From NCBI RefSeq assembly GCF_027579695.1, contig NC_083587.1:36943232-37007231 (forward strand): 64,000 bases of DNA. The letters are read 5' to 3'. Below are positions 4,973-62,008 of the stretch, piece after piece (positions within the stretch are counted from its first letter, which is position 1; each line of letters starts with the position of its first letter). Below the pieces are notes generated by a model that searched no databases, was not told where the DNA came from, and worked only from the letters and a program-made list of their open reading frames with translations. Position numbers and translations under genes: made by a program. This stretch comes from Neoarius graeffei. Lineage: Eukaryota; Chordata; Actinopteri; Siluriformes; Ariidae.

Positions 4973-4985
4973 GATCTTTGGCTGC

Positions 4986-6623: not shown

Positions 6624-16113
<9,490 letters not shown>

Positions 16114-17160: not shown

Positions 17161-17170
17161 ATCATCTCTT

Positions 17171-19475: not shown

Positions 19476-20180
19476 ATTGCATAAAGGGCAAGGGCGCAAG
19501 CCTAATCTGAACACCTGTGATCTCCAATCCCTCAGACGGCACTGCATCAAGAACCATCATTCATCTAAAGCTGATATAACCACATGGGTTTGGAATTACT
19601 CTGTCAAACCTTTGTCATGCACTAGAATATGGAGTTATGTCCACAAATGCCAGTTAAAACTTTACAGTGCAAAAAGGAAGCCTTATGTTCACTGTGTCCT
19701 GAAGCACTGTCAAATTCTCTGGTCTTGGAGGCAACTGGGATGGATCATCACATAGTGGAAATATGTGTATTATGGTAAGATGAATAAATATTGCAGGTCT
19801 TTTTTTGGAAGAATTATACGCTATACACCCATGACCAAAGATGAAAAGGACCATCCAGACTGTTACCAGCAACAAGTCCAAAAGCCAGGGTCTGTCATGG
19901 TATGTCATGTCATGGGTTGTGTCAGTGCCCTTGGGAAAGGTAAGTTACACTTCTGTGATGACAGCATTAATACAGAAAAGTACATTGAGATTTTGGAGCA
20001 ACATATGCTGCCTTCAAGACGACATCTTTTCCAGGGATATTTCAACAAGACAATCTAAAACACATTCTGCACACATTACAAAGGCATGGCTGTGGAAGAA
20101 GAGGGTGCCTGGCCCCAATAGAGAATGTGTGGCGAATTTTGAAAATATGACAACAACGTCCCCATACTGTTGCACACCTT
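19476..20180 (+). pseudogene. Tc1-type transposase fragment, plus strand
   Basis: Runs KGQGRKPNLNTCDLQSLRRH, CQLKLYSAKRKPYVHC, KDEKDHPDCYQQQVQKPGSV, ALGKGKLHFCDDSINTEKYI and LEQHMLPSRRHLFQGYFNKT. Several stops and frameshifts; the catalytic C-terminal part is lost. Confidence 0.8.
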
Positions 20181-20224
20181 AGCTGTACTGTATCAATACA
20201 TTGCAAATTGCTTTGCATTTTGTG

Positions 20225-24294: not shown

Positions 24295-24882
24295 AGATAT
24301 ATGAAACAGTTATTATGACAATTCATAATTGTGACTTTATCTCATAATTCTGAGATATGTTCTCATTCTTATGACGTAACTTCCTTTTTTTTTCCAGGTG
24401 GCGGAAACAGACTTCCGTAGGTTCCCTAAGCGGTTAGCGTATTTATTTAATTGACTTATTTGTACTTTTTAAAACCCCGAATGTCGAAAAGCAGGCACTT
24501 TCCTAATCCGGTGTAATCAGGTTTGGAAAGAAACTTCATCCGGTTGGTTCTCTGGATGAACGGTTCCGTCTAAAACCGTATACGGCGGTGCTAAATAGTG
24601 TGCACGAGCCCGCGGGTGTCGTGCTGTTTTGGCGCACTATTTAGGAAGGTAGTGTGCGGTTTTGAACGTGGATTGAATCGCGTGTCAAACAGCAGCAGCA
24701 GCCGCGTCAAGTCACACTTCCAGCTGGTCAATGTGGCGGTAGTAAGAAGCCGGGGCGTGTTTCGTGATTGGAGTTTTCACACACGCGTGCGGTGGGAAAC
24801 TATTTAAAGATTCTATTTCCTGATGTATAAATCATTATTTGACAAGTAGCTGTGTGAGAATTGAAGTTTGCGATTCGAGAAA
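24295..24882 (+). promoter_or_regulatory. cdv3: CDV3 promoter and 5'UTR region
   Basis: This stretch between a truncated SINE and the CDV3 ATG contains many CpGs, in contrast with the AT-rich surroundings, and shows no TATA box near a plausible start. An ETS-like ACTTCCG lies near 24413. The start codon sits in AAAATGGCGG (24881-24890), which fits both a Kozak context and a YY1-type core as seen at many housekeeping starts. The transcription start is not determinable from the sequence. Confidence 0.5.
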
Positions 24883-25080
24883 ATGGCGGAGGTTGTTGCT
24901 ACAGCCGGCGTGGAAAAGAGTCTCGACGACTTCTTTGCTAAGCGGGATAAAAAGAAGAAGAAAGAAAAGGGGAAAGGGAAAGAAACGGGCCCGGTGAGCG
25001 CCCCGGCCTCGGTGAAGAAGACTAAGAAAGAGAAGGAGAAGTCGGTGAAAAACGAAAACCAGGACGCGACCGTTGAGAAG
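24883..25080 (+). CDS. cdv3: CDV3 exon 1
   Basis: Starts at the ATG of MAEVVATAGVEKSLDDFF and is followed by donor GTAACA at 25081. It encodes 66 residues, highly Lys-rich (about one third Lys). An upstream in-frame extension without ATG is not part of the protein. Confidence 0.95.
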
Positions 25081-40137: not shown

Positions 40138-41629
40138 CAGTGCCTTGCAAAAGTATTCATCCCCTTGTGTGTTTGCCCTGTTTTGTTGCATTACAAACTG
40201 GAATTAAAATGGACTGAGGGTTAGCACCATTTGATTTACACAACATGCCTACCACATTAAAAGGTGCACTACTTTATTTTTATGACACAATAAGGTGAAA
40301 AAACAGAAATCTGGAGTGTGCATAAGCATTCCCCCCAAGTCAATACTTTTTATAGAGCCACCTTTTGCTGCAGTTACAGCTGCAAGTCTCTTGGGGTATG
40401 TCTCTATTAGCTTAGCACATCTAGCCACTGGGATTTTTGTCCATTCCTCAAGGCAAAACTGCTCCAACTCCTTCAAGTTAGATGGGTTGGGTTGGTGTAC
40501 AGCAATCTTCAAGTTATGCCACAGATTCTCAATTGGATTGAGGTCTGGGCTTTGACTAGGCCATTCCAAGACATTTAAATGTTTCCCTTTAAACTACTCC
40601 CATGTAGCTTTAGCAGTATGTTTAGGGTCATTGTCCTGCTAGACCGTGAACCTTCGTCCCAGTCTCAAACCTCTGGCTAACTCGAACAGGTTTTCCTCCA
40701 GAATTGCCCTGTATTTAGTGCCATCCATCTTTCCTTCAGTCCTGACCAACTTTCCTGTCCCTGCAGATGAAAAATATCCCCACAGCATGATGCTGCCACC
40801 ACCATGCTTCACTGTAGGAATGGTGTTCTCAGGGTGTTGGGTTTGCGCCACACAGGGCATTTCCCATGATGGTCAAAAAGTTCAATTTTTGTCTCATTTG
40901 ACCAGAGAATCTTCTTCCATGTGTTTGGGGAGTCTGCCACATGCTGTTGGGCAAACTCCAAACGTAATATATTTTTTTAAAATCAATGACACTTTTTCTC
41001 GCCACTCTTCCATAAAGCCCCACTCTGTGGATTGTATGGCTTAAAGTGGTCCTATGGACAGATACTCCCATCTCTGCTGCGGATCTTTGCAGTTCCTTCA
41101 GTGTTATCTTTGGTGTCTTTGTTGCATCTCTGATTAATGCCCTCCTTGCCTGGTCTGTGAGTTTTGGTGGGCGGCCTTCTCTTGTCAGGTTTGTAGTGGT
41201 GCCATATTCTTTCCATTTTGCTATAATGGATTTAATGGTGCTCCCTGGGATATTCAATGTTTGGGATATATATAAAAAAAAAAACCCCAACCCTGATCTA
41301 TACTTCTCCACAACTTTCTCTGACCTGTTTGGAGGCTCCTTGGTTTTCATGTTGCAGAGTCAGGATCCTTCCAGAACAGACATCATGTGACACTTTAATT
41401 GCACACAGGTGGATCTTAATCAACTAATTATGTGATTTATGAAGTGAATTGGTTGGAGCAGCTCTTATTCAGGGGTTTCATACGAAAGGGGGTGAATACT
41501 TATGCACACTCCAGATTTCTGTTTTTTCATCTTATTGTTTGTGTCACAATAACAAACAAGAAAGTGCACCTTTTAAAGCAACAAAACTGGACAAACACCA
41601 AGGGGGATGAATACTTTTGCAAGGCACTG
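40138..41629 (-). mobile_element. Tc1-like transposon, broken transposase
   Basis: Inverted ends CAGTGCCTTGCAAAAGTATT / AATACTTTTGCAAGGCACTG, with an inner copy of the AAGTATTC motif on each side (IR/DR layout). TA precedes the left end, but the right flank is AG. The minus strand has transposase in pieces: helix-turn-helix at 41350-41160, [20 protein letters not shown] at 40860-40790, and [20 protein letters not shown] at 40569-40510. Frameshifts inactivate it. Confidence 0.9.
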
Positions 41630-42364: not shown

Positions 42365-45300
42365 CTAGAAAATCAAAGAAACAATAAGCATGTGTGTGCG
42401 TATACCTTTGTAGAACTCCGAAGTGATTTCTACAACCCCTGGCAAAAAGTATGGAATCACCAGTCTTGGATGAGCACTCATTCACACGTTTTATTCTGTA
42501 GAACAAACTCAGATCACAAACATGATACAATAATAAAGTCATTCCAAAGTGCACCTTCTTGGCCTTCAGAAACACTAAAAGAAATGAAGAAAAAGCATTG
42601 TGGAAGTCAGTAAATGTTACTTTTATAGACCAAGCACAGGGAAAAAAATATGGAATCATGAAAAACAGACAAACAAAAGAACATGCAAAACACATCACTA
42701 GTACTTAGTTGCACCACCTCTGGCTTTTATAACGGCTTGCAGTCTCTTAGGCATGGACTTGATGAGTGACAAACAGTATTCTTCATCAATCTGGTGCCAA
42801 CTCTCTTTGCCCATGTTTACATTAGACCGTATCAGCGGATCATCAGATTAACGTTTTTAAAACGATTAGTGTGCACACAGCAACACCAATACACGATTCG
42901 CGTGCACACAGCAACACCAATACACAGATACGCTCGGCTCCGCAGGCATCCTGCGCTCCAAATCACTCCGCCCTGAACAGCGAGTGCCCTCTGGAGGGTG
43001 CGCACTCCGGCCTTGCGCAGCTCACAGAGCGCGCGAGTGAAGTGCACAAGCAGTGATTCGGGACTGAGCCGCTGTGTGTGTGATCCCAGCGCATATCACT
43101 TACCACTTGCAAGTGGAAGGATGGCAAGCCTAAAGACAATCATAACTACACAATGGGCAGTATTTGCATCAGTATTTGCAGTATTTTCATACTTTTATAC
43201 TCTTTAATGAAAGGTGATACAAGGCGGAAGTCCGCGCCGTTTTTCAGCAGTCGCGTCACATGACCAACCCCAGCGAATCAGGAAGGTGGATGTCACAGTG
43301 ACGTCGTCCAATGAGACGCCAGCTAGAGCTCAGCACAGCGTATCCGCGTATTCGCAATGTTTACACAGCACCGGAGCTGACACGATCTGGATTGAATACG
43401 TGGACGCTGGCGGATTCCCGTTTCCCGGCGGTTTAATGTAAACGGACAGTGCATCCGCGAAGAAAACGAGACAGATACGGTCTAATGTAGGGATGTCCCG
43501 ATCCGATCACGTGATCGGAAATCGGGCCCGATCACATGGTTTCAGACTCGATCGGAATCGGGCATTGCCTCCCGATCAGGGATCGGATATATATCTATAT
43601 AATATATTCTCATTTTTAACACATCAATAGCTATGCGTTGGCACAGAGTGAGACCAGACCTCTTGTCTCAACACAGCAACATCAACGCGTGCGGCATGAC
43701 ATCACTTTGTAGCGGAGACGCTATTGGTTATTGGCTGCCTGTTGCCGGCAAAGTTGAACACGGAAGCAGTTCGAAGCGGAAAGCAAAGCATGAGATCTTT
43801 TTTTTTTTCGTTGGATGACAAAAGAAACGGGCTCAAACCTGAAAGGGTAGAAATGCTTGTTTTCATCAAGAAAAACGTTCATTTCCTTAATTGAAATTAC
43901 TGTACACCACTGTGAGATGCGTTCTTAAAAGCAAATTACCGGCACCGTGGCACTTTATTTTTTTTATTTGTTTACATTCCTGCCAGGTATTTTAAGGTTA
44001 TTTTTTTTAATTTGTTATTTATTGTTCAAACTGCCTCACGTAAGTGCTCTGTTTGCTAACGGAGTTGTTGGATGTTAAAATAAGGTGTTAAATAAAAAAT
44101 GAGGAACATCCTGGATCCGTTTCTTTCCTCATCTTTATTTTTTATGGATTATAAGAAGTATCGGATCGGGACTCGGTATCGGCAGATACTCAAAATCAAA
44201 TGATCGGTATCGGATCGGAGGGCAAAAAAACCTGATCGGGACATCCCTAGTCTAATGTAAACGTAGCCTTTGATTGCAGTTGCCAGATCAGCTTTGCAGG
44301 CCGAAGCCTTGTCGTGGACCATTTTTTTTTTCAATTTCCACCACAAGTTTTCTATTGGGTTGAGATCTGGACTATTTGCAGGCCATGACATTGACTGGAT
44401 GTGTCTTTCACCAAGGAATGCTTTCACAGTTTTTGCTCTATGGCACGATGCATTGTCATCTTGGAAAATTATTTCATCATCCCCAAACATCTTTTCAATT
44501 GAAGGGATAAGAAAACTGTCCAAAATGTCAATGTAAACCTGTGCATTTATTGAAGAAGTAACCACAGCCATCTCCCCAGTGCCTTTGCCTGACATGCAGC
44601 CCCATATCATCAAGGATTGTGGAAATTTGGATGTTTTCTTCAGGCAGTCCTCTTCATAAATCTCACTGGAACGGCACCAAACAAAAGTTCCAGCATCGTC
44701 ACCTTGTCCAATGCAGATTCGTGATTCATCACTGAAGATAACGTTCATCCAGTCATCCACAGTCCATGATTGCTTCTCCTTAGCCCATTGTAGTCTTGTT
44801 CTTTTCTGTTTAGGTGTCAGTGATGGTTTTCTTTTAGCTTCCCTATATGAAAATCCCATTTCCTTTAGGCGATTTCTCACGGTTCGGTCACATACTTGTA
44901 CATTGACTCCAGCTTCCTCCCATTTATGCTTCATTTGTTTTGTTGTACTTTTTCGGTTTTCAAGACATATGGCCTTAAAGGTCCCATGGCATGAAATTTT
45001 CACTTTGAGGTTTTTTAACGTTAAAATGAGTTCCTCTGACCTTCTTAAGTCACCCCAGTGGCTAGAAATTTCATAATGTGTAAACCAAACTATGCCCAAC
45101 GTTTGAGAATGGCGCGTCAAAACGGCGCATTGATAAACTCTCCCCTTGCCTACGTCAGCAAGGGAGATGATCCCCACGCCCCCCCTCTGGATTCCCATCC
45201 ACTGTATGGATTGCCCCGCCCAGCACAAAAGTTGCCACCAAACATGGAAATTGCGCTGTACATGGATGTGACAACACAGAAAGGAGTCTGTTTTTACTGC

Positions 45301-48188
45301 CGACGGGAGAGCCCCTGAAGACGCAGTGGCTTAATTTTATTTACTCCAATAATATGCCGTCGAGTCTACCTAAGACGGTGTATGTTTGTCGGAAGCATTT
45401 TCCTGATGAATGTTTCCACAACTTGGGACAGTAGGGCAGGTTTTGCACATCAACTGTCACTGAAGCCTGGGTCCGTACCAAGCATCCCTGCCGCATCAGC
45501 CACAAACACCGAACGAGTAAGTGTATAACTGTTAAGTCGTTTTGCCGTGTTTTAAAATCGGTGCCACGTTAGCCTTGCAATGGCTACATTAGCTGTGCAG
45601 CTAACCGCTTCCTGCAGTTAGCCAGGTAATCTGCGCTACAAAACCAAAAAGCATGCAGCATGTTCTGTTATAATAGCCAATCAAAACAGTTTTTACAAAG
45701 ACACCCACATTCTTTTTTTTAAGTCACTCGTTCATTTTATTTGTTTGTTTGTTCAGTAAAAACCCAAACATTTGTTGAATTTATTTTATTTCCTCGCGTC
45801 GCACCTTAATGACATCAGCGCGCGGTATTTTTCCCTTCGCGGTTTGTTCCTTCTCTCTCGCCATAGTAAGACACCCACATCCGCTTGTTCTGACCCACTG
45901 GAGGTAGCATCACAGTGCTGTTAGCCAATCAGAGGTAACACGTTTACATGTTATGAATATTAATGATAAGACCCGCCCCCACCCTCTACCCTTCCCCGCC
46001 TCCATGCTTCTCATTAGCAAAACGACGCACTGGGAAAAGCGCTGAAATGGGGCTTTCTCCCAGGAGGCTATATCTACGTGCCGAGGGTTCATTTCGAGAA
46101 AGGCTGCGGATATAACATCCGGAAACCTCCACGAGCCCGTTTAAAGCATCAACAAACCACCATGCCATGGGACCTTTAAGTTTTTTTGTCTTGACGCTTT
46201 GATGTCTTCCTTGGTCTACCAGTACGCTTGGCTTTAAAAACCTTCCCATGCTGTTTGTACTTGGTCCATATCTTAGATACAGCTGACTGTGAACAGCCCA
46301 CATCTTTGGCAACCATGCGTGAAGAGTTACCTTCTTTAAGAAGTTTGACAATCCTCTCTTTTGTTTCAAGAGACATCTCTCTTGTTGGAGCCATGATTCT
46401 TGCCAACCCACTTGGTCCAGCAGCCCTCCAAGGTGTGATAACTGCGCTGTTTCTAACTGCAGACTAACGAGCAGATCTAATCTGAGGCAGATGTCAATTT
46501 AGGGAAAGGAAATTGACTGGGCGAGTCCTTATTTTCTACCTGAGAATTGAGTGATTCCATATTTTTTTCCTCAGAATTGAGTGATTCCATATTTTTTTCC
46601 CTGTGCTTGGTCTATAAAAGTAACATTTGCTGACTATCACAATGTATTTTCTTCGTTTATTTTAGTGTTTCTGAAGGCCAAGAAGTTGCACTTTGGAATG
46701 ACTATTATTGCATCATGTTTGTGATCCGAGTTTGTTCTACAGAATAAAACGTGTGAATGAGTGCTCATCCAAGACTGGTGATTCCATACTTTTTGCCAGG
46801 GGTTGTAGATTGTTTGTTCATGATTCTTCACTAATTTGAGGCACTTAAAACTCTGCAGCATTTACAGTGCCGTATTTCAGCCTTAAGTTCTAAATTTACA
46901 AGTAAATCATCATGCCTTGCATTAACTAAAGGAGCACAGATAGGACAACAGCAGCGGTATTTCCTCAGCAGCTGCAGATATCCACGTCATTTATTATTAA
47001 CAAATAATCATGTGCCAGAAACAATCTGAAAATGAAATACATCTTAAACCAAAACTAGAAATATTACCTCTTAACTGTGTACTCTAGGGCTGTAACGATA
47101 CACCCAACTCACGATTCGATTCGTATCGCGATTTTTGACCCACGATTCGATACGCCCACGATTTTTTTAAAAATGTTTTTTTAAAGTAGTAAATTTGACT
47201 TATTAACATTTACTTACTTACATTAACTATTTAATAACAAATAATTCAGACCACTGCAGAGAATGAGTAATATGTATGCAAAAATGAACAAATGTATATC
47301 CAAAGATTGTTTTATTTCTCAAAATAATACTGCTGAGCCGGAAGCTCTGTTTTTTTCGGTTCTGAAAAAGTCATTTTTCCAAATCGTGTAAAACCGTTAA
47401 GATTTTTTTTTTTGGGGGGGGTGGCTCTCACTGTCTCACTCTCATAGGGCCAATGATTTTCTGTGATCGCGGAAAACAGATGGAAATTACGGAATTTTTA
47501 TGGTGAAACATTGCTCGCGTGTCAAAATGTAACTGCCGCAGAAGGCTTCCGCCCAAGCAGACATGCCTTCAGTGTTGCCAGATATTGCCAACGTTTTCCA
47601 CCCCAAAATATGTTCAAAACCAGCCAAAAAGCGCCTAAACCCGCCCAATCTGGCAACACTGCATGCCTTTCCGGTCAAGTGATTGTGATTGGCTTGTGGC
47701 ACACCTAGCCAGCCAATGAGCTGCTTGTTTACAGATTCGCTCCCCGCGTCGCAACCAGAATGGCGACCGCTTAAAAGAAATGAATGCTCTGCCAGTGGCG
47801 AGTGTGGATGTTGCGTGACTCGCAGAAGATTGTCGCAGGTCGGCGAAAAAACGACTTACTAATAGATATTAAAAAAAAAAGTAATTTAAGTAAGTTTAAA
47901 ATGTAATTTAAATAAAAAGTAAAGTATTCATAAATTGAAGTTTGGAAGCGTCTCTGTTTTTGGGCTGAGGAGAAGTTTGAAAGGGTGTACCGCGATTCTG
48001 CCTTCTTGTATCACGATACGGATCGTGGCTCTGTGTATCGCGATTTCGATACGCATATCGTTACAGCCCTAGTGTACTCTAAAGATAAAGTTACTAAAAT
48101 TAAAAAGTAAAATGAAAGAACTGAAATTAATTTAAAATCTTGAAACTAGGTACAAAGACACTGAGTATTCTGTTTCAAGGAGGGGAGG

Positions 48189-49006: not shown

Positions 49007-52000
49007 AGCAGCCCTTAGGGCAGAGTCTTTAGTCCAAACACTGCGGAAGCAGTACCAAACCGCACACCGCCCGTGTGCTTTCCAAAAACAAAAACAATCC
49101 CGCCAGCAAACATAGGAAAAAAAAAAAAAAGGAGCGATCTCACCTCTTCAGATGTTGGTTTAAGTCCGACAATACATTCCTCAAAAAGGGCGTAGAAGAA
49201 CAAAGTAATCCATCAATGTGTAGCATTCAATTTATTCCGGACCATTAAAGAATTCTGGAGGATATCAGAATGTTGGCGTACCGGCTTCCATCTACCCCCA
49301 TTCATTCCTCTTTCCCTGTCTTTCGTTTTACGCTACTGATTAATAATCAAAACTTTATGTGGCTGATGCTACAGAAGAAGGGGTTTATGGGGGCGTCGTG
49401 GCTCAGGTGGTTAAGGCGCCATACCATGAATGCGGGCGACCCGGGTTCGATTCCGGCCCGAGGTCATTTCCCGATCCCTTCCCGTCTCTCTCTCTCCCGC
49501 TCATTTCCTGTCTCTACACTGTCCTATCCAATAAAGGTGCAAAAAGCCCAAAAAAATATCTTTTAAAAAAAAAAAAAAGAAGGGGTTTATGCGCATGCAT
49601 CTACTTCTATTGTTCTGGTGTCTCCGATGGGACCGTCTTACAGTGCACGTAGAGGTGTGGCATGTGTATTGCATCGTTTTCAGCAAGCATTGCGTTGCCA
49701 TATGAACCTGATATTTTACTGATCCGTTGCCCATGTGGACGCGATATTTAAAAAAAAAAAAAAAAAAAAAAAAAATCTCGTTGTCATTGTCGCGTGGATG
49801 TAGCCTAAATTGACCGTAGGTGTGAATGGGTGTCTGTGTGTCAGCCCTGTGATGACCTGGCGACTTGTCCAGGGTGTACCCCGCCTTTCGCCCGTAGTCA
49901 GCTGGGATAGGCTCCAGCTTGCCTGCGACCCTGTAGAACGGGATAAAGCGGCTATGGATACTCATGCCAGGGCAGATGACGCATGCAGTCATGACATGAC
50001 TAGTAGGGTTATGACTGTGAAAGTGTTTTCAAAATTTCTACTTTCCTGATGTTGCATTTGGTGAACTTTTACTCATATATTACTTTTTTGAAGTTATTTT
50101 TATTGGGTCATGCAAAAACCTCGCGCACCCAACATCACCTCACTTTTGATAAATACATGTATATTAAATAAATCATGATTATAAAATAAATTCATTAAAA
50201 GATGTGTAAAGTATTTATATAACAATAAATTGCTTAACAATTGTTGTAATAATAATTATAATTGTTAATTAATACAAATTTAAAATTAAATTAAAATTGT
50301 TAAATTAAATTTGTACTAATTAATTATAATTATTATTACAACAATTGTTAAGCAATTTGTTATATAAATACTTTACACATCTTTCAATGAATTTATTTTA
50401 TAATCATGATTTATTTAATATACATGTATTTATGGGTAGCACAGTGGTTAGCGCTGTCGCCTCACAGCAAGAAGGTCCGGGTTCGAGCCCCGTGGCCGGC
50501 GAGGGCCTTTCTTTGCGGAGTTTGCATGTTCTCCCCGTGTCCGTGTGGGTTTCCTCCGGGTGCTCCGGTTTCCCCCACAGTCCAAAGACATGCAGGTTAG
50601 GTTAACTGGTGACTCTAAATTGACCGTAGGTGTGAATGTGAGTGTGAATGGTTGTCTGTGTCTATGTGTCAGCCCTGTGATGACCTGGCGACTTGTCCAG
50701 GGTGTACCCCGCCTTTCGCCCGTAGTCAGCTGGGATAGGCTCCAGCTTGCCTGCGACCCTGTAGAACAGGATAAAGCGGCTAGAGATAATGAGATGAGAT
50801 GAGACATGTATTTATCAAAAGTGAGGTGATGTTGGGTGCGCGAGGTTTTTGCATGACCCAATAAAAATAACTTCAAAAAAGTAATATACGAGTAAAAGTT
50901 CACCAAATGCAACATCAGGAAAGTAGAAATTTTGAAAACACTTTCACAGTCATAACCCTAATGACTAGTAATGGGTTAGAATGTGTTTTATGGCCTTTTG
51001 ACAAGAACATTGTCACGATATGGTATAACAGAAATCTGGATGTAGAATCCCTTATAAGTAAGCCTGGGGAGACAGAGGCAAGGGGGCGAGAATGACAAAG
51101 AAATTTGACTCAAAAGGCAAACCATCCTCTTTGGCATAAGACTGGAGAGTGGGATTATTAATCTTTTAGACTGTAAAGTCAAACAGTACTTTGTATGTAG
51201 AAAGGACTTTCAGCATGAGCATATTATGTGAAGAGGAGCCTTAGGACTATGCAACAGCCTCTGGGTGAAAGGGAGGGTAAACTCTGTCTCCCCTGTCAAT
51301 CAGAGCGACACTGGCCAATCATGGGCATCTGAGAGCTCATACACACGAAAGATGGTGGACAGCATTTTCCTCCGAGGGCGTCACGCCGCCCTGTGCGAGG
51401 GCGTCACGCCGCCCTGTGCGAGGGCGTCACGCCGCCCTGTGCGAGGGCGTCACGCCGCCCTGTGATGCAGCATGAGCAGCAGTTCCAAAAGGATGCAGTT
51501 GGCTGGCTTCATGTGTCTCAGAGAAAGCATGTGTTAGCCTTCACTATCCTCAGTTGGTAGCTGTTGCCTGATAAGAAAGAGATCTGGCTGGTGGGTAGCA
51601 AATGGCAGATGACCAAATTGGGGAGAAAATGAGACAAAGTCCTGGGATGGGCATCAGGGCATTATGATTACAGCAGCTGTTTAGTACAAGACCAGGTGGA
51701 ACTTGGGCATAGCCTGCTTTTTGCAGAAGTGCATAATAAATAGGGATCGCTTCATAACAGTTACGGAACAAAACAGGCTCTTATAACAATTCCCAAATAC
51801 CAACATGACACTTCCTGACAGCACGACCCCTGCTAGGATGTGTTTAATCACATGACCATGTCAGTCTTATGGCACAGGATTCAAGCTACAAATCATACCT
51901 GATGGTAATATTGGGACATGACATGCTTCACAGTTGTTCTCCTCTGCATAAAAAAAGAAAAACGGCATTAATAATTTTCTCGAATATACAGATTCATGAA

Positions 52001-55000
52001 TGAGTGAAACGCTGTGAATGGCATTTTACCGTCCACTCGAACGCCTCTCATCTGTGTTCTGTGCATCTTTTGCAGCAGGGAGAGTGAATCTGCTACCAGG
52101 ATCTTCTTACAGCCCTCTCGCAATAAAATCTAAAGGGAGAGCCATGAAGATGCTTATAAACTTTAGGTCTTTATTAGACCTTGACATTTTATTTTGGATG
52201 TCGACTGACCTGTGCCAAAACTTACTTTTCTTTCTTTGTAATAGGTTGTTGTTTCTGTTGTGACAGCTTACATAGGGAATTGTATGGAGGATGTTCCACA
52301 CTTAATGGCACGGAAGCCGCGAGAGGCCCTTCATATAATCTTTTTTTATTTGCCTTGTTATCCCGAGATAACGACATAATTAATTCAGGATGTCGAGTAA
52401 ACAATACAACTAATTCGAGATCTAGAGAAAACAAAACCGTTATTCAGAGATAACGACATAATTCAGGATGTCGAGAAAACAATACAACTAATTCGAGATC
52501 TCGAGAAAACAAAACAATTATTCCGTGATCTCGAGAAAACGAGACAATTATTCCGTGATCTCGAAGAAAAAAAAAAATTATTTCATGATCTCGAGAAAAC
52601 AGCTGGAGATTTCTAGCAGAGCTGCGCCCCCCTGTGGGTCAGACAATGAAGACTTAGAAATTGGCAGACATGTACCTGGATGAACCATTTCTCAGCTGTT
52701 TAACTCGAGACCTCGAAATAACGGTTTTGTTTTCTCGAGACCTCGAAATAACGGTTTTGTTTTCTCGAGACCTCGAAATAACGGTTTTGTTTTCTCGAGA
52801 CCTCGAAATAACGGTTTTGTTTTCTCGAGACCTCGAAATAACGGTTTTGTTTTCTCGAGACCTCGAAATAACGGTTTTGTTTTCTCGAGACCTCGAAATA
52901 ACGGTTTTGTTTTCTCGAGACCTCGAAATAACGGTTTTGTTTTCTCGAGACCTCGAAATAACGGTTTTGTTTTCTCGAGACCTCGAAATAACGGTTTTGT
53001 TTTCTCGAGACCTCGAAATAACGGTTTTGTTTTCTCGAGACCTCGAAATAACGGTTTTGTTTTCTCGAGACCTCGAAATAACGGTTTTGTTTTCTCGAGA
53101 CCTCGAAATAACGGTTTTGTTTTCTCGAGACCTCGAAATAACGGTTTTGTTTTCTCGAGATCTCGAAATAACGGTTTTGTTTTCTCAAGATCTCGAATTA
53201 GTTGTGTCGTTATCTCGGGATAACAAGGTGAATTAAAAAAAAAGGATTATATGAAGGGCCTCTCTCGGCTTCCGTATAATGGGTTAAAAAGCTTTAAGTT
53301 TTCAGACACAGCAAAATCTTCAACACAGGACTTGAAGACTAGTTTCTTTGTAACGTGGCAAGCTGTGTGGATTTTTTTTTTTTGGGGGGTGGGGAGGTAT
53401 CTTATTTACTTCTCAAGAGGGAGAAAGAGGCTGGTGAGGGAATGACTTTTTATAGCTCTTGTAACAAGTAATAACCAACTTGTTTCACAGATTTTCCACA
53501 ACATGAAATGTGTCTAAAATGAATAAAAAAGTATGATGTGTTTATTAATAACATTCTAATTATTGGTGAATTGCTGTGGTGTAAGAGGAGTAGAGCAATT
53601 AGGGACCTTGCTGTTAAGTGGAACATAATCAACTACCATGTCATGTCCCATATTAACTGGAGCACCGTGATTGTGGGGGGGAAACTACATTTCATTCCTA
53701 TATCTGGTTTCATTTGTGATGCGATAAGAGGCAAACAAACAGTAAAGTGACTCGACCGGAGTGGTAACAGTAATCCTGCTTCATCTCACCACCTCATCAT
53801 TGTTTATTTTCCTGTAACAGCACGCCCCATCAAGTGTTTTACCTGGAGATTAATATTAAATTGGTTTTGGGAATCACCACACTTTAAGGCATCCAACCAT
53901 ATACCTAAAGCACAAACATTAGCATCTTTGAATCTCAGGCATAAATCAGGTTCATATACATGATTATACTATAGGCATGTAACGATATATCGTGTGACGA
54001 TAAATTGCGATACAAATTTCAAAGAAATCGGGACTCTCTTGTTACAGACTGCCAAAAGCAAAAGAGAAGCAAATGGAGGTAGTACAAAAGGCCTACTTGT
54101 AATCTTTTTTTTTTTAACTAAAAGGAATATTTTAGTTAAAGAAGAACTGAAGGCAAATTTATCATCAAGATTCTATTTCTCATTTTATTAAATATAGGAA
54201 TGCATTTTTGATCGCTATTTTGTCGCTGCTATAGCAAGTTATGAGTGTCTGAAATACGCTCTGTAATAGTATATCAGTCCATATGTCAAAGCAATGGCCG
54301 TAAACGAGATTCGTTGAGACCTGTGCGAGACATCGTAGGACGGAAGTAAAACGTACAGCGGAAATCAAAGTGACCGACATCTGCCAAAAGACGCGCGCGC
54401 CCTCTTTCGAACGCTGACGTAATCAAGCTGGAAGTTTTGTTTGTTTTGATAGCAATCAGGAAAGTTTGAAGAAAGTCGGCAGTAATCGGCATTTAAACTC
54501 GTTTTTGTGCAATGTTTCGTTTGGAAAACAGTTTTCAAAATGGCGGCGCTGACACTTCATGTTTCGAAGTCTCGCACACGTCTCGTGAAGATCGCGCGGA
54601 TGAGCGACGCCTGCTGTGGACCAAACGAACTAAATTCAACACGGCTAAAAACCGAATAGGCCGATAAGGGTAATATTTAATTGCAATTAGTTGCCAATAC
54701 GAGTCGCAATATAAGGTTACTAAAACCGAAAACGTAATTGAATAACACGTTAAGAAATGACTTCAGTTCTCCTTTAATATTATAAGACTATTATATATTT
54801 TCGTCCAACCTTTACACATGGGTAAATAATAATTTTTTATTAAAAATTAATTCATTCTTGATGATTTAAATTTTTTTTTTTTTAAACAAAAGGAATACTC
54901 AAGTTGATAAACAGGAAAATAAATGTTGCACTTTTTTGGTAATAAAATGTTCATTTTTATTTCCCAAAAAAATAATGTGGGGGGGAAAAGCAAATCATGA

Positions 55001-58000
55001 ACCCAATATCGTGATGTGAACTGGAAGAATCGTTACATGCCTAGTACACTATAGACAAATCCACACTAAGGTGGTTTGACTAGACAGAATTCAGTAGTGC
55101 AATAGCGGACTCTACCTGTAGATTGTAATCATGCAGGATTTTGACGAGCGAGTCTCTGAGATTTGGGATCTCCATGCCTTCTTTAATGCGGTGGATTAGG
55201 ATAATAGGGTCCACGTGGGTTCCTATGTTGTTCAGGAGGCCTGTGATGAAGGCTGGAGAGTGTGTATGAGGTCAGATGAGCAAGTTTCTTAATGGTTATT
55301 GAAGAATTGCATGCTCTTTTGGGTACTATCAAATGTTTCAAATGTAGGTTTGCCAGTATACTTGAGTCAAACCATTTCATGAGTATCAGCATCACAGGAC
55401 CTTTCAAATGCGTCTGGTCCTGTTTGACCAACAAGCACTGATAGGTTTCTGCTTTCAAAATGACACAGGTTATCACGTACGTGGTTTATCTATGGAGTAG
55501 GAGATGAGATCCTCCCACAGTTCAGCATCATCCTGCTCTTTAGCAAACTCGATAGCCTTATCCACATCTTCCAGCTCCCCCATGATCATCTGCAATGCCC
55601 GCCTGCAGTTTCCCATGCGACCTGCAGATGGAGCAAGGGAGGTGTCATTCCTCTCAGGAACAAAAGTTTAAGATGTGCTTTTATTAAAACTTAAAAAAAA
55701 AAAAAAATGCTGAGAATTTATATTCAAGTATCAAAGGTTACTAAGGTTATTTCCCATTCCTGTTGGTCAGAACATGTGCCTTAATTTTCTATATACGAGA
55801 AGGAATCCTCTTCCACCAAGACAATGCACCAGCCCACACCTCACTGGTTGCCATGGCAACAATTCACGATTGTGGATTCGAACTTGTTCCTCATCCACCT
55901 TATTCGCCAGACCTGGCCCCCTCCGACTTCCATCTGTTCCCCCAAATGAAAAAAGCCTTGGCTGGTCACCATTTTGCCAGTGATGATGATGTCATAGCTG
56001 CAGTCGAGGGGTTTCTTGAGTCCCAAACAAAGGACTTCTTCTACACCGGGATAAAAGCGCTTCAGCACCGTTGGAGCAAGTGCTCAGCCTTTGAGGGGGA
56101 CTATGTTGAAAAATAAATCATCAAAAATCCCTTATCCCTTTTAGTTTTTCTGATGCTTAAAACTTTTCATACACCCCTCGTACTACAGCGTCACTGAATT
56201 CTCAAATCTGACTGGTCAGGTAGTGCGTGTGATTTTTGTACAACACGGATCAGACAGCAGTTTAAAGCTGTACTGCTTTTCAGATTTTTCCACTGTAGGT
56301 CTTAAAATCAATTTTCCCCGACACCCAATTATTTTTGTTTAATGGACCGAAAGCTACTGAATTCGAATCACAGACTTCCAATTTTATTCTTTAAAAAAAA
56401 AAATGAATGAATGAATGAACACGGCTATTTTTTCCTGCTTCACCATGACCCAATTCAAGATGCTACATCATGCATCATGTGGTGGGCTTTCCCTGTTTGC
56501 GCAAGGCACTGTGGGATACAAATTTGAAACAGGAGAGAAAAATGGAGGACGCGAAAGAAACGTGAAAGACCGACTACAGTAACGGAACGTGAGAAGAAAA
56601 GACGTTACGTTGCGAAGGAAAGGAAACGCAGGACCAAACTAATAAATATCGACGGTTAGCGAGCACCTCGGTGTGATCAGCTGTTCGTTTAGAGACAGAA
56701 TGATGTAACTGTCAGTGCACGGTCAAAGCTAAACCTGTGCATGCGCACACGGACTTCCTCTGTCTGCTTGACTACGTGAAGCGAGCAATTTCATGTACAT
56801 TATTTGCGAGGGAAACCCGTCAAATTAAATAACTTCCCAGCCACAGAATGGCTTGGATTTTTTAAAGATATTACAGAAATAAACATATCACAAATGACCA
56901 AATTCAGAGGGAATTAAATTTCACAGATTTTTTGAAAATGAAAGACCGTCTACTTTTAAGCTGTAACATGAACTACAATTTAAGTTAATATTAAAGTGCT
57001 CATTCTAATGTTGTTAGTTCTATAGTAACAACTCTTTCACAGGGATGTTTGGTAGATGGGCCATATAATCTCATCTCATTATCTCTAGCCGCTTTATCCT
57101 GTTCTACAGGGTCGCAGGCAAGCTGGAGCCTATCCCAGCTGACTACGGGCGAAAGGCGGGGTACACCCTGGACAAGTCGCCAGGTCATCACAGGGCTGAC
57201 ACATAGACACAGACAACCATTCACACTCACATTCACACCTACGGTCAATTTAGAGTCACCAGTTAACCTAACCTGCATGTCTTTGGACTGTGGGGGAAAC
57301 CGGAGCACCCGGAGGAAACCCACGCGGACACGGGGAGAACATGCAAACTCCGCATAGAAAGGCCCTCGCCGGCCACGGGGCTCGAACCTGGACCTTCTTG
57401 CTGTGAGGCGATAGCGCTAACTACTACACCACCGTGCCGCCCCGGGCCATATAATTTAAGGCAAAAAACAAACAAACGGTCTTTTTAAAATCACAGTTGT
57501 TTAATAAAGAAAAAATTATATTTACTGATGTAGTGAAGTTTATTTTTGCGGAGACACATTTACATAATATTTATCAAAGGAGTCTGCGCTTTGTAACAGT
57601 CACAGTGCTTTGCAAAGTTTCCCACCACTGGGAAAAATTCTTGAAGACCAAGGAGTTTATGCTTTCAGTTTCTCTGTAAAATGACAAGTTGATTATGTGA
57701 CACATAATAAATGCATTAAAAAAAACATTATTTAACGAAAATTGTTGTTAGAGTCAAGCTTTCTTTGTGGAGATGCTTATTTAGCATTTATGGAAGGAGT
57801 CTCAGGTGTCAGTGCTTTGCAGTGTTGTAGTCGAGTCACTAAACCTCGAGTCCGAGTCATTAAAAATACAAAAAATATTTGAGTTGAGTCCAAGGACAAC
57901 ACTCCAACCGCGCCATGTGACGGTGGCTGTTTCAGCACCATTAACATTAGTTTGTTCCTGAGCATGACGTATGAACAGGTGAATGTGCTTCTCTTTGTCA

Positions 58001-59942
58001 GGGAGTGTGAAGTATTCTGTCAGAGATGGTTAGGAGATGGATGTAAGTGCAGAAGGTGTGTTTATTAATACAAGTGAAGACAGGTAAACAATCCAGAATG
58101 ACAGGCAAAATCGTAAAACAGTGAAACAAGAAGAAGAAACCTTTGTCGCATGCACACTTCAAGCACAGTGAAATTCATCCTCTGCATTTAACCCATCTGA
58201 AGCAGTGAACACGTGCGTGCACCCAGAGCAGTGGGCAGCCACACTACAGTGCCCGGGGAGCAGTCAGGGGTTAGGTACCTTGCTCAAAGGCACCTTAGCC
58301 CAAGGCCCCCCCACGTTAACCTAACCACAGGTCTTTGAACTGTGGGGGAAACCGGAGTACCCGGAGGAAACCCACGCTGACACGGGGAGAACATGCAAGC
58401 CCCACACAGAAAGGCCCTCGCCGGCCACTGGGTTCGAACCCAGCAATAGATCGAGCGATGCACAAACAGGTTATCGTAGACTCAGCAGAATCAAAGACGA
58501 GAAACAGGAAATCAGGCATCAGGAAACCAAATAAGGAAATAAGGCTCGATAATGTGTCAGCAACGCAAGTCAATACTTCGCAAAGTATGCAAGTGTTTTT
58601 TCAGTTTTTATATAGGCGCGCTGACTGCGCCTTAATCCTGTGCAGGTGCGAGTTGTTTATGGCACGCCTGAGAGTCTATCTGATGCACGCGCCAAGGTGT
58701 GCAGGTGTAACAAATTAGGACAAAAATTAAATATCTTACGGCAAATTATTATGGCATGTTACAAAAAAAAAAGAAAAAAAAAAAAAAAAGAGTCCTCGTC
58801 TCCAATTTACGAGTCCTAATGCAGTTAATGCACGAGTCCAAGTCCGAGTCAAGTCACGAGTCCTTAAAATTAGGGCACGAGTCGGACTCGAGTACTACAA
58901 GCCTGGGGCTTTGTACTGGTCAGAGGACAAGAGCGTTCTTGGTAACATGAAAATCTGTGAGTTTTTGTATTTTTAACATCAAGGGCAAGTCAAAAGAGAG
59001 GGGCTGGAGGAACTATTGTTTATAGCTGCTATAATGCAAGTGATAACATGAACTGCTTTCATGGATGTTACATTCCATTCCATGTAACAAATACGAATGA
59101 TGCATCATTCATTAACAAATTTAAAATTGTAATTGGTCAGCAGCACGTCCATTCGAATTCCATTTAAGATTCAGAACAAAAACTGTCTAAAAAAAAATAT
59201 TAATTAAAATAAATTAAAGTAGTATAGTGTACTTTTATGACCCGGATCAAGTTACTTGGTCAAAAAGAAGTTTAAGACTTTCAGCTTAGTATATAAAAAA
59301 AGAGTGCTTAAAAATGTTTTTTATATTGAACAATGAGTTCTGGCTCTCAAATATATAAATATTACGTACATTTAAAAAGTATTTTAATAGTGGAAACCAT
59401 TCATACAGCGCCTCATTCTCAGAAATAAATGTAGGGCAGTAAAGGTTAGATGCAAGAGAGTATTTCATCACGGAGGATTCCAACTTCAGGAGGTAAAACG
59501 CTGAAATGATTCAAAGGTCAGCTGAGGTGATCTGATGAGCTGAATGATATTTTTCGTAGCTCCAAATACGTGCTGCTGGTTTGCTTTTATTTCACTACAC
59601 CACTGGACCTTTCATTAGGTTAGTGAGAAGCATCACACCAGGAATTCTAAATAAGCCTACAAAAATTTGGACTCACTGAGCAGAAAGACTGTTTCCTCGA
59701 CAAAGTGTCTCTGCTGGCAGATCTCCAGGGCCTACAAGAGAACAGCGGATCAGGCTTGTAAAGAAAAATATGATAAAAGAGCTGAGCAGGTTCAGCGGCT
59801 GTACCTTCTCCAGTGGGCAGTGAGTGCTGTCTCTGAGGAAGGGTAGAAGGTTGCCCCGGTCGTACTCCGCATACAGACTGATCTGCTTCTCATGATATCT
59901 CTGTCCCTTGTGGTGGTCTCGCTTAAACAGCTTGTGCAGGTA
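42284..59942 (-). CDS. vps41: VPS41 (HOPS subunit), C-terminal eight exons, gene partial at 5' side
   Basis: Eight coding exons on the minus strand (59942-59805, 59731-59677, 55621-55481, 55252-55116, 52129-52030, 51943-51899, 48307-48228, 42364-42284) join in phase to 777 bp: 258 residues plus TAG. VPS41 is a core subunit of the HOPS tether, which joins late endosomes, autophagosomes and AP-3 vesicles to lysosomes. Residues 1 to about 190 belong to the clathrin-heavy-chain-repeat helical region (LFKRDHHKGQRYHEKQISLY, FITGLLNNIGTHVDP, HRIKEGMEIPNLRDSL). The rest is a RING-H2 finger with ligands visible as CEAC, then CRHMFHKEC, then CNIC. The C-terminus GPGSGILEMKK matches vertebrate VPS41. 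About 600 N-terminal residues (WD40 part and early helices) lie beyond 64 kb. The gene converges with CDV3. Confidence 0.97.
42810..44269. mobile_element. MITE with GTTTACATTAGACCGTATC ends inside the Tc1 element
   Basis: Left GTTTACATTAGACCGTATC and right GATACGGTCTAATGTAAAC (the latter split by the hAT MITE at 43488) are inverted repeats. CTTTG flanks both ends, a 5-bp duplication confirmed by comparison with the interrupted transposase frame. The interior is GC-rich (about 42900-43460) and codes for nothing recognised. Confidence 0.8.
43488..44249. mobile_element. hAT MITE with TAGGGATGTCCCGATC ends
   Basis: Perfectly inverted TAGGGATGTCCCGATC / GATCGGGACATCCCTA; flanks GTCTAATG at 43480-43487 and 44250-44257, a perfect 8-bp duplication typical of hAT. 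It is inserted in the right terminal repeat of the MITE at 42810-44269. Confidence 0.93.
44273..44978 (-). pseudogene. Tc1 transposase catalytic part
   Basis: Open from the MITE boundary through QMKHKWEEAGVNVQVCDRTV, ARG-rich SYREAKRKPSLTPKQKRT, and the full DD34E catalytic domain to KADLATAIK, where the second insertion cuts it. No internal stop or frameshift was seen apart from the two insertions. Confidence 0.88.
44979..46179. mobile_element. PiggyBac-like MITE carrying a THAP-type exon
   Basis: Ends AGGTCCCATGGCATG / CATGCCATGGGACCT are perfectly inverted and both are flanked by TTAA, the PiggyBac target. It is inserted in the Tc1 transposase frame. The interior carries, on the plus strand, a THAP-like zinc-finger coding segment with a donor splice site (45237-45525), so this is not a simple MITE. 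Confidence 0.85.
45237..45525 (+). pseudogene. THAP-type zinc finger exon fragment
   Basis: The frame from 45237 reads HGNCAVHGCDNT (CxxxxC), TQWLNFIYSNN (conserved Trp) and TVYVCRKHFPDECFHNLGQ (CxxH plus F), the C2-CH signature of THAP domains, then stop at 45432. In a shifted frame follows LSLKPGSVPSIP, a segment that commonly follows THAP domains in fish proteins, ending at GTAAGT (45519 region). The frameshift shows it no longer codes. Origin: captured host exon or remnant of an autonomous element. Confidence 0.65.
46176..46406 (-). pseudogene. Tc1 transposase N-terminal part
   Basis: MARIMAPTREMSLETKERIV then KLLKEGNSSRMVAKDVGCSQ and KAKRTGRPRKTSKRQDKK: the paired helix-turn-helix DNA-binding region with a GRPRK AT-hook-like linker. 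The frame is cut by the PiggyBac-like MITE. Confidence 0.88.
46808..47076. other. VPS41 intron, unassigned
   Basis: Nothing recognised. Confidence 0.4.
47085..48071. mobile_element. hAT MITE with TAGGGCTGTAACGATA ends
   Basis: Left TAGGGCTGTAACGATACACC and right inverted TAGGGCTGTAACGATATGCG; flanks GTGTACTC at 47077-47084 and 48072-48079, a perfect 8-bp duplication. The 987-bp interior has no transposase. Confidence 0.92.
48190..48219. repeat. Poly-A run
   Basis: About 30 consecutive A, close to the VPS41 RING exon donor. It may be a retroposon tail or slippage-prone tract. Confidence 0.9.
48228..48307 (-). CDS. vps41: VPS41 exon, RING-H2 core
   Basis: Minus strand, acceptor TTTTTAG, donor GTAAGA. 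It encodes TAQPFSVVVFHCRHMFHKEC and LPSPGT. Immediately beyond its donor, a run of about 30 T on the minus strand (48190-48219) lies close to the splice site. Confidence 0.95.
48308..48547. other. VPS41 intron, unassigned
   Basis: AT-rich; nothing recognised. Confidence 0.4.
48548..48637 (+). mobile_element. SINE 5' part, interrupted
   Basis: AGGCACAGTGGTGAGC then a deletion to GGTGCTCCGG-like sequence and on to ACTGGTGGCTCTAA, where another transposon begins. The SINE continues at 49806. Confidence 0.88.
48638..49805. mobile_element. PIF/Harbinger-like MITE inserted in a SINE
   Basis: Ends GGCCCTGTCCACACGGCAAC and inverted GGCTACATCCACGCGACAAT. The SINE sequence GCTCTAAATTG is split so that TAA is present on both sides, a 3-bp duplication as made by PIF/Harbinger. 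No transposase is recognised. It contains the second SINE at 49389-49578 and poly-A runs. Confidence 0.75.
49389..49578 (+). mobile_element. Second-family tRNA-derived SINE with 14-bp target duplication
   Basis: Starts GGGGCGTCGTGGCTCAGGTG with A box TGGCTCAGGTGG and B box GGTTCGATTCC (about 49443), then a CT-rich body and TCCAATAAAGGTGCAAAA, ending in poly-A. AGAAGGGGTTTATG is present on both sides. Unrelated to the DANA-like SINEs of this window. Confidence 0.88.
49806..49960 (+). mobile_element. SINE 3' part, continuation
   Basis: Resumes AAATTGACCGTAGGTGTGAA and runs to GGGATAAAGCGGCTATGGAT, completing the SINE started at 48548. Confidence 0.88.
50004..50960. mobile_element. Palindromic hAT MITE, split by a SINE
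   Basis: Ends TAGGGTTATGACTGTGAAAG / inverted copy at 50960; flanks ATGACTAG at 49996-50003 and 50961-50968, a perfect 8-bp duplication. Apart from the SINE at 50431-50804 the element is a nearly perfect palindrome of about 580 bp with centre near 50290 (AAATTAAAATTGTTAAATT). The arms appear almost identical, so a very long hairpin is possible. Confidence 0.92.
50431..50804 (+). mobile_element. DANA/Mermaid-like SINE inside the palindromic MITE
   Basis: Full-length plus copy, flanked by ACATGTATTTAT on both sides (about 50423 and 50804), its target duplication. This SINE is younger than the palindromic element. Confidence 0.93.
50969..51373. other. VPS41 intron, unassigned
   Basis: Nothing recognised. 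Confidence 0.4.
51374..51463. repeat. 23-bp minisatellite, four units
   Basis: The unit contains GAGGGCGTCACGCCGCCCTG followed by TGC; four near-identical copies in tandem, the last one incomplete. Strikingly GC-rich in an AT-rich intron, and each unit contains a GGGCG...CGCCC inverted repeat. Confidence 0.93.
51464..51898. other. VPS41 intron, unassigned
   Basis: Nothing recognised. Confidence 0.4.
51899..51943 (-). CDS. vps41: VPS41 45-bp exon, first RING zinc ligands
   Basis: Minus strand, acceptor TTATGCAG, donor GTATGA. It encodes EENNCEACHVPILPS with the first CxxC of the RING-H2 finger. The small exon is real because phase and flanking protein match exactly. Confidence 0.93.
52030..52129 (-). 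CDS. vps41: VPS41 exon (ILLREGCKKI)
   Basis: Minus strand, acceptor CCTTTAG, donor GTAAAA. It encodes ILLREGCKKILVADSLSLLQ then KMHRTQMRGVRVD and one base of the next codon. Confidence 0.95.
52304..53272. mobile_element. Second copy of the ACGGAAGCC foldback MITE, expanded by a tandem array
   Basis: The ends ACGGAAGCC and GGCTTCCGT and the inner blocks TCATATAATCTTTTT and TTATCCCGAGATAACGAC match the element at 391-886. The right arm has expanded into 16 tandem 30-bp units. TAATGG occurs at both flanks but is not a clean 9-bp duplication. It lies in a VPS41 intron. Confidence 0.75.
52711..53190. repeat. 30-bp tandem array, 16 units
   Basis: The unit contains CCTCGAAATAACGGTTTTGT followed by TTTCTCGAGA, exactly 30 bp. 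Fifteen copies appear identical and the last has two changes. Because 30 is a multiple of three and the unit has no stop in several frames, long ORFs run on both strands (10-residue repeats FSRDLEITVL on plus, RKQNRYFEVS on minus). These are probably not genes. Confidence 0.95.
53273..53971. other. VPS41 intron, unassigned
   Basis: Nothing recognised. Confidence 0.4.
53972..55043. mobile_element. hAT-like MITE with TAGGCATGTAACGAT ends
   Basis: Left TAGGCATGTAACGATATATC, right inverted TAGGCATGTAACGATTCTTC. Flanks TTATACTA and GTACACTA agree at six of eight positions. The roughly 1.07-kb interior has a CpG-containing part near 54350-54620 and no transposase. Confidence 0.82.
55116..55252 (-). 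CDS. vps41: VPS41 exon (FITGLLNNIG)
   Basis: Minus strand, acceptor CTCTCCAG, donor GTAGAG. The 137-bp exon encodes FITGLLNNIGTHVDPIILIH, RIKEGMEIPNLRDSLVKIL and HDYNLQ, among the most conserved VPS41 segments. Confidence 0.96.
55253..55480. other. vps41: Short VPS41 intron between two CHCR exons
   Basis: 228-bp intron without inserted elements, in contrast to the neighbouring large introns. Confidence 0.7.
55481..55621 (-). CDS. vps41: VPS41 exon (MGELEDVDKAIEFAKEQ)
   Basis: Minus strand, acceptor ATCTGCAG, donor GTACGT. The 141-bp exon encodes RMGNCRRALQMIMGELEDVD, AIEFAKEQDDAELWEDLISY and SIDKP. Confidence 0.95.
55745..56180 (+). pseudogene. Mariner (DD34D) transposase 3' fragment
   Basis: The plus frame encodes ILFHQDNAPAHTS, HPPYSPDLAPSDFHLFPQMK and KALQHRWSKCSAFEGDYVEK with TAA at 56114. 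The second and third acids are Asp, 34 residues apart, in the mariner-specific YSPDLAPSDF block. The 3' terminal sequence ACTTTTCATACACCCCTCGT is present; the 5' half of the element is missing. Confidence 0.9.
56181..57057. other. VPS41 intron, unassigned
   Basis: No coding or repeat signal recognised apart from a short (AATG)n at about 56401. Confidence 0.4.
57070..57443 (-). mobile_element. DANA/Mermaid-like SINE with 12-bp target duplication
   Basis: Full-length minus copy. GGGCCATATAAT is at 57058-57069 and 57444-57455, perfect. Confidence 0.95.
57456..57823. other. VPS41 intron, unassigned
   Basis: Nothing recognised. Confidence 0.4.
58135..58310. repeat. Common fish retroposon fragment
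   Basis: CACAGTGAAATTCATCCTCT and GCATTTAACCCATCTGAAGC followed by GCCCGGGGAGCAGTCAGGGG and CTTGCTCAAAGGCACC. The same motif class is seen at 39850-39900 and about 25760. The class is not certain. Confidence 0.5.
58312..58442 (-). mobile_element. SINE fragment (DANA/Mermaid-like)
   Basis: Minus-strand copy of the middle part: GTTAACCTAACCACAGGTCT to GGGTTCGAACCCAGCA. Head and tail missing. Confidence 0.82.
58908..59676. other. VPS41 intron, unassigned
   Basis: Nothing recognised. Confidence 0.4.
59677..59731 (-). CDS. vps41: VPS41 exon, 55 bp
   Basis: Minus strand, acceptor CTTGTAG, donor GTGAGT. It encodes ALEICQQRHFVEETVFLL plus one base of a split Ser codon. Confidence 0.94.
59805..59942 (-). 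CDS. vps41: VPS41 exon (CHCR part)
   Basis: Minus-strand exon of 46 full codons with AG at 59943-59944 as acceptor and GTAC at 59804-59801 as donor. It encodes YLHKLFKRDHHKGQRYHEKQ and continues to HCPLEK, near-identical to human VPS41. Confidence 0.95.
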
Positions 59943-60254: not shown

Positions 60255-60256
60255 TA

Positions 60257-61861
60257 CAGTGGGGCAAAAAAGTATTTAGTCAGTCACCAATTGTGCAAGT
60301 TCTCCCACTTAAAAAGATGAGAGAGGCCTGTAATTTTCATCATAGGTACACTTCAACTATGAGAGACAGAATGTGAAAAAAAATCCAGAAAAATCACATT
60401 GTCTGATTTTTAAAGAATTTATTTGCAAATTATGGTGGAAAATAAGTATTTGGTCAATAACAAAAGTTCATCTCAAGACTTTGTTATATACCCTTTGTTG
60501 GCAATGACAGAGGTCAAACATTTTCTGCAAGTCTTCACAAGGTTTTCACACACTGTTGCTGGTATTTTGGCCCATTCCTCCATGCAGATCTCCTCTAGAG
60601 CAGTGATGTTTTGGGGCTGTCGCTGGGCAACACGGACTTTCAACTCCCTCCAAAGATTTTCTATGGGGTTGAGATCTGGAGACTGGCTAGGCCACTCCAG
60701 GACCTTGAAATGCTTCTTACGAAGCCACTCCTTCGTTGCCCGGGCAGTGTGTTTGGGATCATTGTCATGCTGAAAGACCCAGCCACGTTTCATCTTCAAT
60801 GCCCTTGCTGATGGAAGGTTTTCACTCAAAATCTCACGATACATGGCCCCATTCATTCTTTCCTTTACACGGATCAGTCGTCCTGGTCCCTTTGCAGAAA
60901 AACAGCCCCAAAGCATGATGTTTCCACCCCCATGCTTCACAGTAGGTATGGTGTTCTTTGGATGCAACTCAGCATTCTTTCTCCTCCAAACACGACAAGT
61001 TGAGTTTTTACCAAAAAGTTCTATTTTGGTTTCATCTGACCATATGACATTCTCCCAATCCTCTTCTGGATCATTCAAATGCTCTCTAGCAAACTTCAGA
61101 CGGGCCTGGACATGTACTGGCTTAAGCAGGGGGACACGTCTGGCACTGCAGGATTTGAGTCCCTGACGGCGTAGTGTGTTACTGATGGTAGCCTTTGTTA
61201 CTTTGGTCCCAGCTCTCTGCAGGTCATTCACTAGGTCCCCCGTGTGGTTCTGGGATTTCTGCTCACCGTTCTTTCTTGTGATCATTTTGACCCCACGGGG
61301 TGAGATCTTGCGTGGAGCCCCAGATCGAGGGAGATTATCAGTGGTCTTGTACGTCTTCCATTTTCTAATAATTGCTCCCACAGTTGATTTCTCCACACCA
61401 AGCTGCTTACCTACTGCAGATTCAGTCTTCCCAGCCTGGTGCAGGTCTACAATGTTGTTTCTGGTGTCCTTTGACAGCTCTTTGGTCTTGGCCATAGTGG
61501 AGTTTGGAGTGTGACTGTTTGAGGTTGTGGACAGGTGTCTTTTATACTGATAACGAGTTCAAACAGGTGCCATTAATACAGGTAACGAGTGGAGGACAGA
61601 GGAGCCTCTTAAAGAAGTTGTTACAGGTCTGTGAGAGCCAGAAATCTTGCTTGTTTGTAGGTGACCAAATACTTATTTTACAGAGGAATTTACCAATTAA
61701 TTCATTAAAAATCCTACAATGTGATTTCCTGGATTCTTTCCCCCCATTCTGTCTCTCATAGTTGAAGTGTACCTATGATGAAAATTACAGGCCTCTCTCA
61801 TCTTTTTAAGTGGGAGAACTTGCACAATTGGTGGCTGACTAAATACTTTTTTACCCCACTG
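60257..61861 (-). mobile_element. Full-length Tc1 transposon, apparently intact
   Basis: The 1605-bp element starts CAGTGGGGCAAAAAAGTATT and ends with the inverted counterpart; TA flanks both sides (60255-60256, 61862-61863). Each terminal repeat is about 200 bp and contains an outer and an inner copy of AAGTATTTRGTCA (outer near 60270 and 61845, inner near 60445 and 61668), the IR/DR arrangement of Tc1 elements such as Sleeping Beauty. One uninterrupted transposase lies between. Outer ends differ at few positions over the first 115 bp, so the insertion is probably recent. Confidence 0.95.
60473..61495 (-). CDS. Tc1-type transposase, uninterrupted 340 codons
   Basis: Cuts and pastes its own element at TA sites. 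Start ATG gives [20 protein letters not shown]; 340 residues is the normal length for this family. Residues about 1-110 form the paired helix-turn-helix DNA-binding region ([19 protein letters not shown], then the GRPR-like linker [13 protein letters not shown], where the usual Arg is Ala). Catalytic triad: [26 protein letters not shown] and [11 protein letters not shown], with exactly 34 residues between the second Asp and Glu. The glycine-rich [20 protein letters not shown] is present. The minus-strand gene is sense with VPS41 and lies in its intron. Whether every residue is functional cannot be told by eye. Confidence 0.93.
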
Positions 61862-62008
61862 TATGTCATATTTAGCAAAATTACTCGTGTCATTTAGAAA
61901 AAGTGCTTTTTTGACCACAGGTAGCTCCAAAAGGGATGCACTTAAATCATTCTTTATACCATAAAACAAATATTTGGTTCCACATCATTGGAAACATACT
62001 GTAGTTAC

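Follow-up and report, generated by a model that had tools for sequence, protein, structure and literature searches.

The Tc1 copy at positions 60257 to 61861 of the window, which is the whole stretch of 64,000 bases (no N) analysed here, is very probably a recent insertion of a fish DD34E/Tc1 transposon that has complete ends and a transposase damaged by cancelling indels and by the loss of one codon. Two frameshifts appear to cancel each other within this copy, and the element is an ordinary representative of the DD34E/Tc1 group common in fishes, with a deceptively open transposase frame. The sequence-only reading had taken it for an apparently intact copy that may be recently or still active. 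The whole Tc1 structure and the young look of the element stood up to closer analysis, but the intact transposase, and hence the still-active copy, did not, because part of the RED subdomain is misframed and one codon is missing.

Boundaries, ends and coding capacity of the element

The element is 1,605 bp long, and its coordinates, which were read directly, are exact to the base. The target site copies, ends and direct repeats are as follows.

60255..60256, no strand: TA target site copy, left (read directly)
61862..61863, no strand: TA target site copy, right (read directly)
60257..60464, plus strand: left inverted end, 208 bp, beginning with CAGT (end-to-end comparison)
61654..61861, minus strand: right inverted end, 208 bp (end-to-end comparison)
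60267..60290, plus strand: left outer direct repeat, core (19/24 match to the inner repeat)
60441..60464, plus strand: left inner direct repeat, core (same repeat comparison)
61828..61851, minus strand: right outer direct repeat, core (19/24 match to the inner repeat)
61654..61677, minus strand: right inner direct repeat, core (same repeat comparison)

The TA duplications, the terminal repeats of roughly 200 bp with outer and inner direct repeats, and the near identity of the ends over their first 115 bp had all been proposed from the sequence alone, and all were recovered by measurement. The outer and inner direct repeats are alike at 19 of 24 positions in each end, a value equalled by none of the 200 shuffles made per end. 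When the left end was compared with the right, two differences were found in the 117 bp of the outer part and 25 in the 91 bp of the inner part. The TA target site duplication is that of DD34E/Tc1 elements, and the length of the ends, about 200 bp, and their paired outer and inner repeats are those of the IR/DR group.

The insertion is probably recent, because the outer 117 bp of the ends differ at only two sites. With the synonymous rate quoted in PMC7913693, these two differences correspond to about 2.1 Myr (interval 0.25 to 7.5), an estimate that presupposes identical outer ends at the time of insertion and no conversion since. The differences between the inner parts were also considered as a sign of age and were rejected (25/91 vs 2/117, Fisher p 1.9e-8). 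Given this contrast, the asymmetry of the inner parts is probably a property of the family and not the result of decay. The element marks what is probably a recent wave of Tc1 movement in the host genome.

The coding region and its flanking motifs lie on the minus strand.

60473..61495, minus strand: Tc1 transposase open frame, 340 aa from ATG, DD34E (D154, D244, E279)
61539..61546, minus strand: TATAAAAG upstream of the transposase start (motif match only)
60418..60423, minus strand: AATAAA downstream of the transposase stop (motif match only)

The full-length frame of 340 codons and the complete DD34E triad that had been claimed for the element are both present. The frame is open from its ATG, and the other two minus-strand frames over the same interval contain 22 and 21 stops. 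Pfam matches to the 340-aa protein were obtained for PF25787 (Sleeping Beauty HTH), PF01498 (Tc3-type second HTH) and PF13358 (DDE_3). This is the DD34E/Tc1 arrangement of paired-like N-terminal HTH domains followed by DDE_3, with PF01498 matched only from profile position 18. The catalytic domain matched the solved Sleeping Beauty structure at 1.3e-78 and the PAI subdomain at 4.2e-9. Counted by hand, 34 residues lie between D244 and E279, the spacing of a DD34E/Tc1 triad. We take D244 to be the second catalytic Asp, in preference to the neighbouring D246 (spacing 32), on the basis of the Sleeping Beauty alignment and numbering. Judged by its sequence, the element is a DD34E/Tc1 transposon with an IR/DR layout.

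The alanine noted earlier in the GRPR-type linker was also found, in the form RSGAPRKIS, and SGAPRK is common in fish transposases of the same type. A literature search found SGAPRK in no paper. The position of the alanine is occupied by Arg in two relics of the window (SGRPTK and EGRPPK), and Sleeping Beauty carries a GRRR motif (PMC7827188).

Reading frame of the RED subdomain and the missing codon

The transposase is not in register with its relatives throughout: it departs from them at residues 75-86 and at residues 227-228.

61238..61273, minus strand: residues 75-86, which depart from the family's frame; the RED subdomain reading lies in the neighbouring frame
60812..60817, minus strand: residues 227-228 (ENLPS), where relatives have one residue more (alignment with Sleeping Beauty and window relics)

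At the first place, the PF01498 match to the open protein begins at profile position 18, corresponding to residue 87, and the matches in two other Tc1 relics of the window begin at positions 7 and 8. The part of PF01498 absent from the open frame is contained in the neighbouring frame. When the neighbouring-frame reading was put in, the profile was covered from 3 to 71 and the score rose from 68.4 to 84.1 bits. On the same profile the 11 residues, shuffled by hand in eight ways, scored 69.5 to 78.4 bits, in every case below the real order and above the open reading. The Pfam gain is thus partly due to the dropping of the extra residue, or to composition.

A comparison with the Sleeping Beauty RED structure (5unk) pointed the same way. 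The neighbouring frame aligned without gaps at 41.4 bits (1.3e-9), with NPRTT identical, whereas the open frame needed a one-residue gap and reached 24.8 bits (2.9e-4). A Pro-x-x-Thr at the same spacing is kept in the two window relics that were read at this place (26.9 and 40.9 kb). Anchored on the Pro, the neighbouring-frame peptide gave BLOSUM scores of 21 and 11 against the relics at 26.9 and 40.9 kb; the open frame, placed as favourably as possible, gave 0 and -1. These neighbouring-frame scores were reached by 25, 344 and (jointly) 73 of 20,000 shuffles. The earlier reading had held that diverged genome copies together with departure of the ORF from its family consensus at catalytic or DNA-binding residues would speak against an active copy, and of these a departure at DNA-binding residues was found in RED relative to Sleeping Beauty, to Pfam and to the window relics.

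At residues 75-86 the open frame exceeds that of its relatives by one residue, which is most simply explained by a net gain of four bases at an AAGA repeat and a net loss of one base in a G run. We infer that these two offsetting indels would have scrambled the stretch from RED helix 1 to helix 2. Both places are short repeats, which are prone to sequencing or assembly errors, and the real copy might therefore be in frame. Such an explanation is nevertheless very unlikely, since a pair of mutually cancelling errors would have to have arisen by chance inside 40 bases. Frameshifts are known in many fish Tc1 copies (PMC4683633). The literature search returned NPRTT only in unrelated papers, and no paper that pairs a compensatory frameshift with Tc1 and transposase.

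The second place, at ENLPSAR, is one residue short when compared with Sleeping Beauty and with five of the six aligned window relics (40.8, 44.9, 9.6, 19.4 and 20.0 kb); the sixth relic (26 kb) is shorter still there, not longer. The other strand of the Group 1 primer 2R of PMC3516227, by the reading made in this analysis, gives ENLLPS. As far as the aligned sequences indicate, the gap at ENLPS is an in-frame loss of one codon in the catalytic domain.

Both places bear on whether the copy could be fully autonomous and still active, with residues 75-86 as a tolerated or family-specific RED variant. The frame is open from end to end, the triad is present and the outer 117 bp of the ends are nearly identical, as such a copy would have them. 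Against this, the conserved residues lie in the neighbouring frame, the open frame is longer than that of its relatives at that point, and the catalytic domain lacks one codon, so that full autonomy is unlikely. A frame kept open despite two inferred indels might also be expected of a domesticated Tc1-derived DNA-binding protein, retained by the host with its RED altered under selection. Complete ends flanked by TA are instead what a simple recent insertion would show, and we regard domestication as extremely improbable.

What the misframed stretch would mean for the protein can be judged from Sleeping Beauty. In its RED subdomain, helix 1 comprises residues 67-77 and helix 2 residues 84-93; a role in RED-RED contacts has been proposed for helix 2, and assembly at the outer repeats is not completed without RED (PMC7827188). 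Residues 75-86 run from the last part of helix 1 through the turn into the first part of helix 2. Our preferred reading, a recent insertion with a damaged transposase, would run as follows. An IR/DR transposon of the Sleeping Beauty, ZB or DTSsa1 kind would have inserted recently beside a VPS41-like exon. This copy or its parent would have taken two cancelling indels, leaving residues 75-86 of RED misframed, and the same copy or parent would also have lost one codon of the catalytic domain. The protein, if made, would keep PAI and most of the catalytic part and would be damaged from RED helix 1 to helix 2. It would probably be inactive, or weak in the recognition of outer repeats and in the pairing of ends. 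The transposase of a working relative could still mobilise the ends. The copy is probably non-autonomous, to judge from its sequence, and perhaps still mobile in trans. It is highly improbable that the reframed RED is functional and shifts which ends are recognised or paired, which would make the copy a naturally occurring variant that acts on its own family with altered specificity or as a dominant negative.

In a published survey (PMC9777934), an 'intact' copy is defined by TA, the ends and a transposase 300 aa long or longer, and the present copy has all of these. Caution is needed here: by such a standard the copy counts as intact, although its DNA-binding domain seems to be scrambled by cancelling indels.

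Relation to known transposons

Among known systems, Sleeping Beauty, a salmonid DD34E/Tc1 transposon with IR/DR ends, shares with the element the domain order, the DD34E triad and the make-up of the ends, which measure about 200 bp and hold direct repeats in outer and inner positions. It differs in belonging to another family by sequence; in the present element, moreover, the RED stretch is out of frame and the catalytic domain has one codon fewer. DTSsa1 of Atlantic salmon is similar, with a length of about 1,600 bp, 200-bp ends, CAGT termini, a TA target and, in one copy, a 340-aa frame (PMC2198921). ZB of zebrafish, which was compared by description, is alike in size (1,597 bp, 201-bp ends, 341 aa; PMC7913693), and more than 100 'intact' ZB-like copies in 26 species have been reported (PMC9777934).

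Identities of 92.5-100% have been reported for the Group 1 Tc1 elements of fishes and lampreys (PMC3516227), with which DTSsa1 is grouped; membership was judged by an identity of at least 92.5% to the Group 1 consensus. The six Group 1 primers given in PMC3516227, the only part of that group compared, showed 27 mismatches to the element in 126 bases, an agreement well under the reported identities. With primer 2R left out, because it finds its best ungapped match away from the homologous place, there were 20 mismatches in 106 bases. Judged by these primers, membership of the element in the fish-lamprey Group 1 is not likely.

Sequence collections were searched as well; they comprise viruses, plasmids, bacteria and archaea and say nothing about fishes. 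A protein-based scan of genome_contigs gave 14 stretches that fit the pattern, none of them confirmed, and the same scan of viral_contigs gave one, also not confirmed. The end-sequence pattern was found in neither genome_contigs nor viral_contigs, and a degenerate pattern for a 12-residue peptide had no match in viral_contigs. A tblastn search of phages gave no match, and that of plasmids gave one weak IS630 match. The literature search found the element's end sequence in no paper.

Genomic setting and other features of the window

An exon at 59802-59942 on the minus strand, and further exons near 59.7, 55.6, 55.2 and 52.1 kb, are presumably VPS41-like, by their match to a VPS41 query sequence. 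The match to the Vps41 chain 7zu0 reached an E value of only 0.067. Of a query of 99 VPS41 residues that takes in the preceding part of the protein, the first 79 had no match in the window, so the element would lie upstream of the exon at 59802-59942. The element is most likely in an intron of this VPS41-like gene, in the same orientation as the gene. Other pieces of host genes occur on the plus strand at 6587-7927 and 24865-25125. One TMEM108-family match was obtained among them, and one stretch of this set, which has no Pfam match, was taken by us to be CDV3-like.

Other Tc1/mariner relics were located at 25976-26978, 40345-41330, 44329-44901, 9206-9940, 18983-20183, 55778-55972, 15178-15366 and 46179-46463, most of which carry stops or frame changes. 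The relic piece at 44152-45330 contains one stop-free stretch of 393 codons with matches to PF01498 and DDE_3.

A repeat of about 375 bp is present at 2529-2902, 4602-4975, 16792-17165, 18403-18776, 21341-21714, 50443-50800 and 57068-57442, together with more partial copies. Its copies are mostly 94-98% alike, and duplicated flanks of 10-12 bp were seen at five of the seven copies whose flanks were inspected. It looks like a young SINE-type element; a tRNA scan aimed at this repeat called no tRNA gene. A retrotransposon lies on the minus strand at 11607-14158, with RNase H-like matches at 12185-12802 and, near them, frames which by eye are integrase- and Gypsy-like. Finally, a 30-bp tandem array of 16.5 copies with 99% matches occupies 52704-53197, and related 30-bp units occur at 441-565, 699-832 and 52467-52601.
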